Shown here: positions 34,435 to 42,962 of the stretch, one piece after another | How positions within the stretch are numbered: position 1 is the first letter of the stretch | Layout: the number at the start of each line of letters is the position of its first letter | Notes under the pieces: model-generated | Seen by the model: the letters and a program-made list of their open reading frames with translations, nothing else | What the model was told of the DNA's origin: nothing | Databases searched by the model: none | DNA from: Candidatus Stygibacter australis | Lineage (GTDB): Bacteria; Cloacimonadota; Cloacimonadia; Cloacimonadales; TCS61 | DNA length: 43,589 nt | Direction of reading: 5' to 3' | Assembly: GCA_030765845.1 (NCBI GenBank) | Contig: JAVCDJ010000179.1 | Coordinates: 1 to 43,589, forward strand | Position numbers and translations under genes: made by a program

Positions 34435-34461
34435 AAAAAAAAAGCCCCGGATCCTGTCCGG
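34435..34461 (-). terminator. Second terminator after uvrB
   Basis: A short stem CCGGA/TCCGG (34447-34451 with 34457-34461) is followed on the minus strand by GGC and nine T. The stem is only 5 bp, but the T tract is long. It lies directly downstream of the stronger terminator at 34475-34500. Confidence 0.6.
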
Positions 34462-34474
34462 TCTTTTCCTGTTT

Positions 34475-34500
34475 AAAAAAAAATCCCCTCTGGTCGGGGA
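34475..34500 (-). terminator. Rho-independent terminator of uvrB
   Basis: The stem TCCCC/GGGGA (34484-34488 and 34496-34500) has a 7-nt loop and is followed on the minus strand by nine T. It lies about 50 bp after the uvrB stop and isolates the uvrB transcript from the kor operon. Confidence 0.85.
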
Positions 34501-34549
34501 CAGCAGCGGTTCAGTATCTGTAGATGCCATCAACCTCTTACTCCTGTTC

Positions 34550-36547: not shown

Positions 36548-38620
36548 TTATTCTGCAAGCGGCAGAGAAATCTCAAATAATGCTCCAGAATTATGATTCC
36601 GGGCTTTGATTGATCCCTTTAGTACCTTTTCAATTATCATCTTACTAATATATAATCCCAAACCTGGTGCTTCTGATTTATCTGGTGAACTGAAATATGG
36701 TTCATAGATCCGGTCCATTATAGCTAATGAAATCCCACCCGCATTATCTAATATGCTGATTATCAAGTTGTTATCCATTATTTTTGACTTGATCTTGATC
36801 TGTGGTTTTTCTATTTTTCTCAGTAAAAATTCATCATAAGAATTTTTAATGATCTCCTGTAATGCCTGCTTAAATTCATTTGTGTTAATTGTGATCTCAA
36901 GATCTTTTTCAACCTCATTTTTCAGCTTTACATTGCTCGATTCTTCATCCTTCAGGACGACAGTCTGCAATTCTGATATCAGATCGTGAATATTAGCTTT
37001 TTTTGCTAAACTCTCCGCTTTATGATATTGATTAAAAAAATGTACTTTATCCCTCAAATACTTGATCTGATTTTCCACAGTCTGGTGTATCTGATGAAAT
37101 CCCTCAGGTGTTAATTCTTCACATTCATAGGCTTCCACCCAGTTATGTATCTGAGTGCTGAGTGCATTTAAAACTTCCAGCCACTGGATCGATATATGAG
37201 ATAAAAGGTCATTGATCGCCGCATATTTTGATTTCTGGATCAGGTATTTATCCTGACTGCGGATTTCAGTTAATTGCTCATTAAGCTTATCGTTAAATAA
37301 TTCCTTAAGTTCCTTCAGCTCTTTTTTCACCTGCTTCAATGTCCGGGAATCATGCTTATAGTTCTTCAATTCTGTCTGATTGCATATAAATCCCTTGGAA
37401 GATAATGGCTTATGCTTTGAGCTAAACCGATTCCGGCAGATTATATGAACCTTTTTCTCCACTCCAAATCTATCTACTATCCGGTAATCTCCTTCCCAGT
37501 CCCTTTGTTCTGCCAGACTTTGATGAAATCCCTCATAAAATTCTTCCTGGTCTTTTTTATGCACCTGATTCAAAAATTCCCCAAAACTGATTGGCAGATC
37601 ACTCTCAGTTATCCCTAATATTTCAACTGCTTCTGGAGTACCGGTAAATTGATCAGTTAAAAAATCATATTCCCAATAGGCTATCCCGGAGATTCTCTCT
37701 ATCTCATTCAAGATTCCCTTTACCCTTTTAAGCTCATGTTTAACTTCTTTCAGATGAGTAATATCTTCCACAGTTCCGATCAGAGAAATACTGTCTTCAA
37801 TTGGATCATAAAATGCTGCTCCCAGCACATGGACATATTTAACTTTGTCCCGCAGATTTATCCGATGCTCATAATCAAGATTTGAGGTCAGCTTCTCATC
37901 TGATATCTCGGATAAAACATGCTCTTTGTCATCATCATGAACGCAACTAATATAATCCTTCAATTTGATCCTTTCCGTAACGTTCATCGATCTTGGACAT
38001 TCAAATATATTCAATGCCCCTTCTGTTACATATAATTCCTGGTTATAAGTATTGTATTGAAAAAATCCACTTGTGGAAATCTCTTGTGCCTTGCTGAACA
38101 GATTCTCATACCGCTTCACTCCCAGCTGATGGATCTGTTCCATTGTGATATCCTGGAGCAACACCACTAATATTTTCCCCGGCTGTGTGATAATACGGTA
38201 GGATTTGTTATTTCTCTGATGAAAATATTCACTGATCATCGGTTTTCTGTATTGATAGGAGTTTTTCAGAAATGTCAGTAACTTATCATCATTATCAGCA
38301 ATAAAGCTGCTGATGGGTTTACCAATTATTTCTTTCTCGGCAAAAAATTCTCTCTCCGTCAAACCCGGGCTTGATTTTATTATAGCAAAATCTGTACATT
38401 TGTCATGACCATTAAAGATTGGCTCAAGATCAAGGGTGTCATAGTTTTGCTCTTCTAAACTATTCTCTCCAAAATGACAGGATAAATCTAAATCTGCTCG
38501 GGTAACATTGAAGCTGTGCTTTTCTAAAAAGCTGTGCATGGAATCAATATCTGCGTACAGCTTATTTATCCATTCTTTCAAATTTATATCGTACTTCACA
38601 AAATTACTGCCTTCAGACAT
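36548..38620 (-). CDS. PAS-domain sensor kinase-like protein lacking the phospho-acceptor His
   Basis: A 690-residue soluble protein, no transmembrane helix seen. Two or three PAS/PAC regions lie at about 60-165, 175-295 and 300-420 (the PAC-like YEHRINLRDKVKYVHVLGAAFYDP and DWEGDYRIVDRFG segments are clear). A coiled coil (about 420-460), a dimerisation helix pair (about 462-545) and a HATPase_c domain (about 560-690) follow; the last has the N box EIIKNSYDE, G1 DNAGG and G2 GLGLYISK. In related kinases the first helix reads IAHQWRQPLN; here the aligned segment is ISIQWLEVLN, with Ile478 where the His should be and a His only at 475. ATP binding appears intact but autophosphorylation may be lost. 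No response regulator is adjacent; it is upstream of uvrB. Confidence 0.85.
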   Translation of the reverse strand: MSEGSNFVKYDINLKEWINKLYADIDSMHSFLEKHSFNVTRADLDLSCHFGENSLEEQNYDTLDLEPIFNGHDKCTDFAIIKSSPGLTEREFFAEKEIIGKPISSFIADNDDKLLTFLKNSYQYRKPMISEYFHQRNNKSYRIITQPGKILVVLLQDITMEQIHQLGVKRYENLFSKAQEISTSGFFQYNTYNQELYVTEGALNIFECPRSMNVTERIKLKDYISCVHDDDKEHVLSEISDEKLTSNLDYEHRINLRDKVKYVHVLGAAFYDPIEDSISLIGTVEDITHLKEVKHELKRVKGILNEIERISGIAYWEYDFLTDQFTGTPEAVEILGITESDLPISFGEFLNQVHKKDQEEFYEGFHQSLAEQRDWEGDYRIVDRFGVEKKVHIICRNRFSSKHKPLSSKGFICNQTELKNYKHDSRTLKQVKKELKELKELFNDKLNEQLTEIRSQDKYLIQKSKYAAINDLLSHISIQWLEVLNALSTQIHNWVEAYECEELTPEGFHQIHQTVENQIKYLRDKVHFFNQYHKAESLAKKANIHDLISELQTVVLKDEESSNVKLKNEVEKDLEITINTNEFKQALQEIIKNSYDEFLLRKIEKPQIKIKSKIMDNNLIISILDNAGGISLAIMDRIYEPYFSSPDKSEAPGLGLYISKMIIEKVLKGSIKARNHNSGALFEISLPLAE

Positions 38621-38783
38621 TCACTTCCCCTGCAATTATTTCTCGCATATTCCTGATTCTATTTTTTTCTGTCAAGCATTCTATCTTATCTGCCTTTTAA
38701 CTAATAAAACCTGTATCTTCCCAATATATAACGGATTACACCGTTTATCATGCACGGGCTATCCCGCTAATATTGTACCTATC

Positions 38784-41700
38784 TTATCTTAATATTAATA
38801 ACTTACCACTTTCTTCCATACCCCTGCCTTTTAATTGGTAAAAATATATGCCGGCACTACATTTTTCTCCCTGATCATTTCTGCCAGTCCAGTAGTAGTT
38901 ATTGATTCCTTCTATTAGAGTTAATTCACTGCTCTTGACCTTCTGACCCCTGATATTATAGATCCCCAGTTCCATTTCAGTATCTTCCTGGTAATTGAAT
39001 AGGATCTCAAAGGTGGTGCCACTGGCTCTTGCAGAACTGCTTATAAAGGGATTTGGATAATTCCTCACACTTAGTATTTCTACTGGTGCTATCTCATCAG
39101 GTGTCTCTCCTGTGAGCTCAAAGGCAAAATCAAATTCATTGATCACATCAGCTTCCACAATAAAATCATTTGCCCACTGCTCCAGATAATCTCCCATTGT
39201 CAGTCTGATATCATAAGTCCTGGCTGGCAATTCAAGCTCAAATACTCCCCCATTCTCACTAACTGCTGAATATATCCCCATTTCCACAACTACTCCATCA
39301 ACACCTTCCCCTGTTTCAGAATCTGTGATCATAGCTGATATTGTACCCATGCCCAGAACTTCGGTTTCAGATAAATATAATTCCCGCAATTCCAGATCTG
39401 ATAATCCTCTATTCCATATCCGCACTTCATCCATTATTCCATATAAATAACCTTCAGCAGTCGGACTGTCAGGGGATTTGCCAATATACATATCTGTGCT
39501 GTCAGCCATCAGGGCACTGCCCAGTGCACCTTGTGCCAATACTTCACCATTAATATAAGTTTTTGCGGTTAATCCATTATTTACTATTGCCACCTGGTTC
39601 CATTCCTGCCAGTGAAATCTCCCGTTTGGTGTATTAGGAGCTCCATCATTTGTGCCACCTGACTCAGTATGAAAACGGTGATGAATATAGTCTGCATCTG
39701 CATTCAACCACGCGCATTGATTGCGTCCCGGTCTCCCGATCATTCCTCTCCAGCCTGTATTCAAAGTATCTGCATTGATCCAGAAAAGTGTTGTATAATG
39801 CAAAGCTGATTCGGTGAGTTCATCGTTGGCTGACACTGTGATATATCCCGCCCCATTAAATTCCACACCATTACCAAAAGGTGTTTCCACAATACTTGTT
39901 AACCATCCCAAACCTTGCCAGTTACTCATCATATCATTATAATCATCATCAAAGGGGAAATATGCCAGTTGCTCATATTCCAGTGAACTGCCATCTTCAA
40001 AATGTATCATCCCTGCCTCAGATAAACCCGAACTGTAATTGGCTATTATCTCTATACTGTGCTCTCCAGCATCCACTCCTGCTTCTGCAAGATCAAGTCC
40101 CGGCTCAGCCACTATCCCAAGCGGTTCCGTATCACCATCCAGATATATCTCATAATTCTCAAATTCCCGATTCTGGGGCACAGCATCCCAGCTCAGATAA
40201 TAATCATATACCCCGGCAAACTGCACTCCCGGCAGAAGTTCGATTAATTCATACGCCAACTCGCTGTCAGCCAATATCTCCAATTCACTTGTCAATCCCT
40301 CATAAAATTCCAAAGCAATAGAAATCTGATAATTGCCTTTCCAGACATTATCAAGCACGATATTGCCTTCCTCGGGATAGCTTAATTCATAATTATAAGG
40401 GCTGTTCACTCCCTCCAGATTTCGCAGCGTTATCATTGCTCCGCCTGCACTGTCTCCTGAATTAGTTGTTAGATCTATACTCACCTGGGCGGTCATATAT
40501 AAAGGTAATATCTGGCTGATCGTAAAATCTGAACTATAGGAAGAGTAATGTGCTGCCACTGCGTAGCGATATTCACCAGCTTCCAGGCTAAGCCATTCTT
40601 CATCTATAAAACTTGTTTCAGTAATTGGTGCTCCGGTCAATTGCACCCAGTTATCTTGATTGAATTCATCTTCGATTAGAAGACGATATACCCAGTAACC
40701 AGTAAGCGACCTGCTCATCAAACTTGATGGTGCTTCCCAGCTTACTACTGCTGCAGTTTCATCATCTCCATTCACCACCACGTTTAAAGGCGCAATTGGA
40801 TCATCTGCCAGGCTGCCATCCAAAGCAACCTGTTCACCGTCTACCACTTCAATATTCTCATATCTTACTCTTTCATACAGCGGATGATCCATGATCACGG
40901 TATATTCTCCAGGATACACTTCCAGATTGTAACTGCCATCAGCACCAGTCTCGGTCACAAATGCTCCGGCCATCACTTCTGCCCCGGCAATATTTGCTCC
41001 GGTTGCAGCATCACTCACAATACCCGTAAGTGTTCCTGTTCCGCCGGTACCTTCCCAGCGGTATAATGCCACACTGCCCGTCACCCATTGCGGGTTGACA
41101 ATATTATTTCCATTATCAAGCACTGCATACCAGCTGCCCATATCAGGATAAGGCATATCAAAGGCGAATATCCCGAAATCACTCTCGCTGATCGTATTAA
41201 ATCCCTCAAATGGTAAGCTTGACACGTAACTGAAATACTGCACCAGATCACACATGAAAAAATTCACTGCTCCCTGCTGCTGCCTGTCATAAAACCAGGT
41301 ATCTTCACTGGTGTCATCCATCACAATATTACCATATATTGCTTGACTGTCTGCCTCATATTCCACTACCAGCCGATAATCCGCTTCATCATCTTCCGGT
41401 ATATCTATTTCTGTATATGCTATCTGAGGTATCTCATTATTGATCTGAAGCTCCACTTCATACACATCTCCACCTGCTGTGTTCTCCGTAACCATTTGAT
41501 ATTCCACACTGCCCCAGGCGGTACTCATCTGCACCCAGTATTCATGTCCATCGCCAATCGTAAAATCATATACCCCTTCATTGCCTGTCCAGCCCACCAT
41601 ATCACCCGTAACCTGACCATTTAATCTCAATCCGATCAATACACGAGCTCCGTCCAAAGACTGACCTGCGCTATCTGTTGCATGAACTATCATATGTGCA

Positions 41701-42962
41701 TAATTGGGAGCATACTTTTCTGTCACACTGCGCATCACGCCATCAGATCGCACATCGATCACTGAACCAAAATTACTTCCCCAGCCATTCTCATACATAT
41801 AAAAATTATTAATACTGCCACCATCCCAATGTATCCATTCTTCATCCCAGAATTCATTCCAGGTATGATCAACTGTAAAGCATACGATACTGGTCATAGG
41901 CACCAGAGCTGTTCTTCCGATTGCCACCCGCATATCCGCATGTTCTCCACATCTGCCTATATGCTTGCGATATATCCGCACCGGCTGATGAGGTCGCTCA
42001 AAATTACTCGTAAACACCAGACTCTGTCCCAGCCATTTCGTACAGGCACCTATTGCAGAATCATACCCAGTAGTAAAATCATTGGCATATTCGCACTGCA
42101 CCAGATAATTTCGCAGTGAGGGATAATCATCATCAGCATAATTATACAAAAAATCACGCCAGAAATATCCCTCATCAGGTCCCACTATATTTGTGGTATG
42201 GCTCCCGTTACTCTCTACTATGTCAGGAGAAATAAATGCCGGTATCTCATCTGTTATCTTAGGATGTACTATATGCCAGTAATAAATATCCCTGGGCACT
42301 TCCACCTGATGAACAACACCATTACTACTCTTTGTCCAGTATCGCGTTGTGCTGTAATAATCATCATCCATCAATGAATTACCATAATCCACAACCTCCA
42401 CATAGTTCAATTCCTGGTCATATTCATAGATCATCTCCGCATTCTGGATATATAATTCCGGATATGCCCACTCGCTGCTTAAATACACAGTAGAAGCTGT
42501 CGCTATACAAAACGCCACCTCATCCACGATGGGATCATCCACGTCAATGATCACATTAGCCCAGTATTCCTGCAATTCCTCATCAAGCGATAGTAGCGTG
42601 GTCTCCAGCTCTGCCTGGATCCATAAAGGTGCTCTATCAATTGCATCAAGCACGACTCCACTCGCTTCACTGCTCAATCCGTTTACGTTCATCTCATGAG
42701 TTATCCCCGTGTATTCCACGCTTATATGTTCTCCGGAAGGTAAAAATGTGTTAATGTTCACTGAATCTGCCAGCTCCCAGCCCTCACGGTCAATTTCATC
42801 AATTCTTTGAGTTATCTCTATTTCATCTCCCTGATACGCTGCAGCATTTACCAGGGCAGGATCGCTGGGTTCTGATAGTTCCCGGCAGGTTAATCCTCTT
42901 GCAGATTCAGCAAATAACATCATTCCACTCATTAAAATAAAAAGTATTAATAATTTCTTCAT
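38784..42962 (-). CDS. Secreted transglutaminase-like, LamG-containing protein with sorting domain
   Basis: A 1392-residue exported protein with a signal peptide (about 1-20). A transglutaminase-like core has Cys338 in GRCGEHADMRV, His366 in DHTWNEFW and Asp380 in IHWDGG, the complete Cys-His-Asp triad. Then come a carboxypeptidase-regulatory-like beta domain (about 637-705), an FN3-like region (about 715-800), further beta domains, a LamG-type concanavalin-like domain (about 990-1195, AYFPFDDDYND to DEVRIWNRGLSD), a second regulatory-like domain (about 1200-1270) and a C-terminal sorting domain (YPNPF, YNIRGQKVK, SAGIYFYQL). It could cross-link or hydrolyse amide bonds and bind carbohydrate at the surface; activity is inferred. 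The gene is preceded by RBS GAGGAG. Confidence 0.88.
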   Translation of the reverse strand: MKKLLILFILMSGMMLFAESARGLTCRELSEPSDPALVNAAAYQGDEIEITQRIDEIDREGWELADSVNINTFLPSGEHISVEYTGITHEMNVNGLSSEASGVVLDAIDRAPLWIQAELETTLLSLDEELQEYWANVIIDVDDPIVDEVAFCIATASTVYLSSEWAYPELYIQNAEMIYEYDQELNYVEVVDYGNSLMDDDYYSTTRYWTKSSNGVVHQVEVPRDIYYWHIVHPKITDEIPAFISPDIVESNGSHTTNIVGPDEGYFWRDFLYNYADDDYPSLRNYLVQCEYANDFTTGYDSAIGACTKWLGQSLVFTSNFERPHQPVRIYRKHIGRCGEHADMRVAIGRTALVPMTSIVCFTVDHTWNEFWDEEWIHWDGGSINNFYMYENGWGSNFGSVIDVRSDGVMRSVTEKYAPNYAHMIVHATDSAGQSLDGARVLIGLRLNGQVTGDMVGWTGNEGVYDFTIGDGHEYWVQMSTAWGSVEYQMVTENTAGGDVYEVELQINNEIPQIAYTEIDIPEDDEADYRLVVEYEADSQAIYGNIVMDDTSEDTWFYDRQQQGAVNFFMCDLVQYFSYVSSLPFEGFNTISESDFGIFAFDMPYPDMGSWYAVLDNGNNIVNPQWVTGSVALYRWEGTGGTGTLTGIVSDAATGANIAGAEVMAGAFVTETGADGSYNLEVYPGEYTVIMDHPLYERVRYENIEVVDGEQVALDGSLADDPIAPLNVVVNGDDETAAVVSWEAPSSLMSRSLTGYWVYRLLIEDEFNQDNWVQLTGAPITETSFIDEEWLSLEAGEYRYAVAAHYSSYSSDFTISQILPLYMTAQVSIDLTTNSGDSAGGAMITLRNLEGVNSPYNYELSYPEEGNIVLDNVWKGNYQISIALEFYEGLTSELEILADSELAYELIELLPGVQFAGVYDYYLSWDAVPQNREFENYEIYLDGDTEPLGIVAEPGLDLAEAGVDAGEHSIEIIANYSSGLSEAGMIHFEDGSSLEYEQLAYFPFDDDYNDMMSNWQGLGWLTSIVETPFGNGVEFNGAGYITVSANDELTESALHYTTLFWINADTLNTGWRGMIGRPGRNQCAWLNADADYIHHRFHTESGGTNDGAPNTPNGRFHWQEWNQVAIVNNGLTAKTYINGEVLAQGALGSALMADSTDMYIGKSPDSPTAEGYLYGIMDEVRIWNRGLSDLELRELYLSETEVLGMGTISAMITDSETGEGVDGVVVEMGIYSAVSENGGVFELELPARTYDIRLTMGDYLEQWANDFIVEADVINEFDFAFELTGETPDEIAPVEILSVRNYPNPFISSSARASGTTFEILFNYQEDTEMELGIYNIRGQKVKSSELTLIEGINNYYWTGRNDQGEKCSAGIYFYQLKGRGMEESGKLLILR

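Follow-up and report, generated by a model that had tools for sequence, protein, structure and literature searches.

The window, i.e., the whole analyzed stretch of 43,589 nucleotides, features on its reverse strand a gene for a PAS-bearing protein with a histidine kinase core but without the phospho-acceptor histidine, which is directly followed by uvrB. Translation of positions 36548-38620 (reverse strand) yields KYAAINDLLSHISIQWLEVLNALS. The features of the locus are as follows:

38670-38675, reverse strand: TTGACA, a -35-like element within GCTTGACA upstream of the kinase, identical in three genomes
36548-38620, reverse strand: probable PAS-sensor pseudo-histidine kinase of 690 amino acids without acceptor His, based on the open reading frame and orthologs in two other genomes
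38126-38620, reverse strand: N-terminal part (residues 1-165), predicted with low confidence to adopt a PAS-like fold and carrying a conserved NFxKYDxxxxEWIN...TRADxDLS segment
37736-38125, reverse strand: PAS-like domain (residues 166-295); with 87% identity within the closest ortholog pair, it is the best-conserved region of the protein
37361-37735, reverse strand: PAS_3 domain (residues 296-420), Pfam PF08447 at residues 329-411 with 7.5e-13
37001-37231, reverse strand: degenerate DHp helical hairpin (residues 464-540), from alignments and the helices of the model
37198-37196, reverse strand: His475, three residues before the acceptor column, with His, His and Gln across the three orthologs
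37189-37187, reverse strand: Ile478 at the phospho-acceptor position, codon ATC; the two orthologs have AGA (Arg) and CAA (Gln) instead
36551-37000, reverse strand: CA (HATPase_c) domain (residues 541-690), from motifs and a structural match
36844-36842, reverse strand: N box, N593
36748-36734, reverse strand: G1 box, D625-G629
36664-36653, reverse strand: G2 box, G653-L656
34550-36535, reverse strand: uvrB, starting 12 bp after the kinase stop
34447-34501, reverse strand: pair of hairpins with trailing T-runs between uvrB and a ferredoxin gene, present in all three genomes

The CA domain is recognized by the Pfam model HATPase_c with 49 bits at a cut-off of 26.4, and its N, G1 and G2 boxes are intact, as the initial annotation had stated. 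These nucleotide motifs (N593, D625-G629, G653-L656) are likewise kept in the orthologs. An alanine as first glycine of the G2 box was considered as a special trait and dropped; the position varies in canonical paralogs. In the sensor half, a weak PAS match was obtained for the PAS-like domain in the third ortholog, and the N-terminal part is present in the three orthologs only. Its NFxKYDxxxxEWIN...TRADxDLS segment, residues 1-60 of the kinase (38441-38620, reverse strand), is well kept across the three orthologs, and no further protein with such a segment was found among the genomes of the family that were searched.

The isoleucine which the initial annotation had seen in place of the phospho-acceptor His is borne out: residues 476-485 read ISIQWLEVLN, whereas aligned paralogs carry IAHQWRQPLN. 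In an HMM alignment of the kinases of the window's genome and its close relatives, counted as rows with a residue in the acceptor column, this column holds 57 His, two Asn (one gene seen twice) and one each of Ile, Arg and Gln, the latter three being the 690-amino-acid protein and its two orthologs. The protein thus shares the ATPase domain with all three boxes with canonical kinases of the HQW type, but lacks their acceptor. The erosion further includes the surrounding H box, which reads LSRHWLDALN in G002 and VAQHWLQPVQ in G022. Positions +4, +5 and +7 do not vary across 36 aligned rows of the HQW type, but each is changed in at least one ortholog, with the proline at +5 appearing as Val, Ala or Pro. 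Position +3 is Leu in all three orthologs versus Arg or Lys in aligned paralogs. When columns with a conservation of 85% or more across 32 His-bearing kinases are considered, one ortholog or more deviates at 10 of 12 columns of the DHp domain and at 5 of 15 of the CA domain (Fisher p 0.02). As a separate observation, a second kinase of the window's genome carries Asn for the acceptor His (IANQWKQPLN; G000:C36, about 20.6-22.0 kb, reverse strand). The gene for this Asn-bearing kinase (loci L007/L008/L025) is located on contig C36, where several HATPase genes are clustered.

Full-length orthologs occur in only two other Cloacimonadota genomes among 125 searched, namely G002 of the same genus (65% identical, Arg at the acceptor position) and G022 of the same family (41% identical, Gln), so that three orthologs are known in all. 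The absence of the kinase from G001, a genome of the same genus which is 67% complete, was dropped as evidence; it is uninformative because uvrB is missing there, too. Paralogs share 23-32% identity, mostly over the kinase core, and keep the His. In a maximum likelihood tree of the DHp-CA part, the trio forms one clade (100/99) within the clade of HQW kinases (100/100), i.e., it shares common ancestry with the PAS kinases of the IAHQWRQPLN type in the same genomes, which retain the acceptor His while this lineage is without it. Because the trio is a single clade inside His-bearing kinases, the acceptor was probably lost once, in an ancestor that preceded the split of the three orthologs, judging from the alignment and tree. 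Thus, the alignment with homologues proposed in the initial annotation reveals a loss that is conserved in both orthologs, though the replacing residue differs (Ile, Arg or Gln).

The reading frame is open in all three orthologs, and dN/dS over the whole gene amounts to 0.098 for the closest pair, an approximate value because synonymous sites are near saturation; a ratio of about 0.1 indicates that the gene is under selection. Conserved loss of the acceptor and purifying selection, a combination expected of a pseudo-histidine kinase, were hence found together. Within the closest ortholog pair, identity reaches 74% in the sensor part and about 50% in both the DHp and the CA domain. Pairs of His-bearing kinases within the genus feature 83-100% in the DHp domain, which is the best-conserved part in most of them, 65-89% in the CA domain, and 38-92% in the sensor where comparable over its length. 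The order of conservation is accordingly reversed: selection acts mainly on the sensor half and is relaxed on the transmitter, although the nucleotide motifs persist.

Structure prediction of the full-length protein from three sequences was poor (AlphaFold, pLDDT 52). A model of the DHp-CA part from 35 sequences was of moderate quality (pLDDT 78) and displayed a helical hairpin and a CA domain; being a monomer, it gives no information on the residue that is opposite the ATP site of the second chain. Its best structural matches are solved histidine kinases, with a TMt of 0.85 for the CA part versus ADP-bound ThkA (3a0t) and a TMt of 0.67 (rank 37) for the DHp-CA model versus DivL (4q20_B).

The gap of 12 bp to uvrB given in the initial annotation is correct, and the corresponding distances from kinase stop to uvrB start are 12, 13 and 17 bp in the three genomes, all of which share the gene order secreted protein, kinase, uvrB, ferredoxin and 2-oxoacid oxidoreductase subunits. 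This kinase accompanies none of the further uvrB genes whose upstream sequence was examined. The short gaps together with the conserved terminator-like hairpins suggest that kinase and uvrB form a co-transcribed two-gene operon, at whose transcript end the hairpins at 34447-34501 would probably act as terminators. A function as leader-type attenuator of the oxidoreductase genes is possible as well. In all three genomes, the hairpins overlap a short reading frame, noted by eye, which has an AGGAG-like site, and an Rfam search, including these hairpins, gave no match. Upstream of the kinase, no clear -10 element partnering TTGACA was seen; a promoter scan found no excess over shuffled sequences and did not flag the element. 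The neighbor uvrB, an odd partner according to the initial annotation, is shared by all three genomes and looks co-transcribed with the kinase, but no functional link is evident. Further upstream, a large secreted protein with an apparent C-terminal sorting-type tail is encoded (38784-42962, reverse strand), which by eye comprises a transglutaminase-like N-terminal and a LamG-like C-terminal part. Of 123 Cloacimonadota genomes, 60 encode relatives of its N-terminal half; as these genomes mostly lack the kinase, the secreted protein was rejected as a dedicated kinase partner. No receiver-domain match, response regulator or second kinase was found within the window, and 52 receiver matches lie elsewhere in the genome.

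The favored explanation, to which we would give an even chance, is that a conserved, PAS-sensing pseudo-histidine kinase arose from the HQW-type PAS kinases of Cloacimonadota and, like DivL and RocA, acts via another protein. Since the acceptor is lost, autophosphorylation is, according to histidine kinase chemistry, very unlikely; the proposal of the initial annotation that the protein does without it gains support from the non-His residue in both orthologs. According to the proposed mechanism, the PAS domains would still sense a signal and the DHp hairpin would still dimerize, while the pseudokinase itself would not autophosphorylate and binding of ATP or ADP would at most tune its shape. 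The output would presumably consist of protein-protein contact, most likely by altering the activity of a canonical kinase or by reading a response regulator, in analogy to DivL and RocA. A regulator of another kinase, likewise considered initially, is thus supported as a possible role. The probable co-transcription with uvrB would set the timing of kinase production and not its target.

A kinase acting in trans or an ATP-gated effector would likewise be compatible with the retained N, G1 and G2 motifs. It is unlikely that the protein works as one half of a heterodimer and uses its intact CA domain to phosphorylate the His of the other half, a canonical HQW kinase, so that it could donate but not accept phosphate. 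Apart from the retained motifs, this arrangement would fit the many HQW paralogs in the genome and the resemblance of the predicted fold to ADP/ATP-bound kinases; still, the CA domain diverges as fast as the DHp domain (51%), while working kinases keep 65-89%, which argues mildly against it, and the DHp surface needed for pairing with a paralog has diverged. Rather improbable is a nucleotide-gated effector similar in principle to NifL, in which PAS signal and ATP/ADP occupancy control the binding to a target outside two-component systems, possibly UvrB or its regulation. Kept nucleotide motifs beside a lost acceptor, the conserved adjacency to uvrB and the shared terminator-like hairpins are consistent with this possibility, but adjacency alone is weak evidence of interaction. 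Moreover, the NifL model matches the two other orthologs weakly, in the DHp/ATPase region and with 40.8 and 45.6 bits far below its cut-off of 242, is absent from the best 25 matches of the window's protein, and no nifA was recognized among the open reading frames of the window.

The weaker conservation of the kinase core could also be plain decay, with only the sensor half working. That the C-terminal core is a decaying remnant, so that the PAS half alone or nothing functions, is improbable to the same degree as the nucleotide-gated effector: the DHp and CA domains diverge faster than the sensor and the end branches of the tree are longer than in ordinary ortholog pairs, but the N, G1 and G2 residues persist even at 41% overall identity, the frames are open, and the CA domain, too, shows more synonymous than replacement change (pS 0.65 versus pN 0.35). 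Autophosphorylation on another histidine, i.e., His475 or His492 in this protein and the His at +1 in orthologs, is highly doubtful. His residues at -3 and at +14 occur in two orthologs each and at +1 in two, but no His column within residues 450-538 is common to all three, and the surrounding H box is lost as well. His475, which the initial annotation had offered as acceptor, lies outside the acceptor column of the alignment and is Gln in the third ortholog; it was rejected as a family-wide acceptor. Only a faint chance is left for a PAS pseudokinase, made from the same transcript as UvrB, through which an environmental signal would act directly on nucleotide excision repair and whose ATPase domain would be a nucleotide switch instead of a kinase. 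Although the draft genome consists of 278 contigs, a sequencing or assembly error at 37187-37189 has a negligible chance and was rejected, as both other orthologs are non-His and several further H-box positions are changed. The refutation named in the initial annotation, such an error together with homologues that have an intact His, therefore fails.

The conserved pseudo-histidine kinase reading places the protein in a known functional class, of which it is a new member in a little-studied phylum; to our knowledge, few pseudo-histidine kinases have been characterized. The drift of the acceptor to Ile, Arg and Gln with kept nucleotide motifs and PAS domains provides a natural test of the histidine kinase fold without phosphotransfer. 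In addition, the reversed conservation, with the sensor above the transmitter, may be a marker by which further proteins of this kind can be spotted in genome data.

Among known systems, DivL of Caulobacter (Tyr550 for His, PDB 4q20) likewise features a histidine kinase fold with PAS sensors, a replaced acceptor and kept nucleotide motifs. In vitro, the PAS-bearing DivL, with Tyr for His, lacks both kinase and phosphatase activity but specifically binds DivK~P, and it is considered a modulator of CckA (PMC4211667). Nevertheless, the structural alignment with DivL amounts to 18-19% identity, i.e., there is no close sequence kinship. DivL carries Tyr and appears to keep all other histidine kinase motifs including the H box, whereas the acceptor here is Ile, Arg or Gln and the H box is eroded, with changes at +3, +4 and +5. 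Furthermore, the pseudokinase adjoins uvrB and has no known partner of the DivK/CckA type. Direct inhibition of one sensor kinase by another was described for RetS, which is not a pseudokinase (PMC5992135). RocA, a pseudokinase of group A Streptococcus, works through the canonical kinase CovS (PMC7028121). It is membrane-bound, while no transmembrane segment was noticed here on inspection. In RocA, a His is still present, though dispensable, and CA residues are lost; in the present protein, the His is lost and the CA motifs are kept. The likeness to RocA lies in the pseudokinase nature of both proteins, and action via a canonical kinase is the model proposed here.
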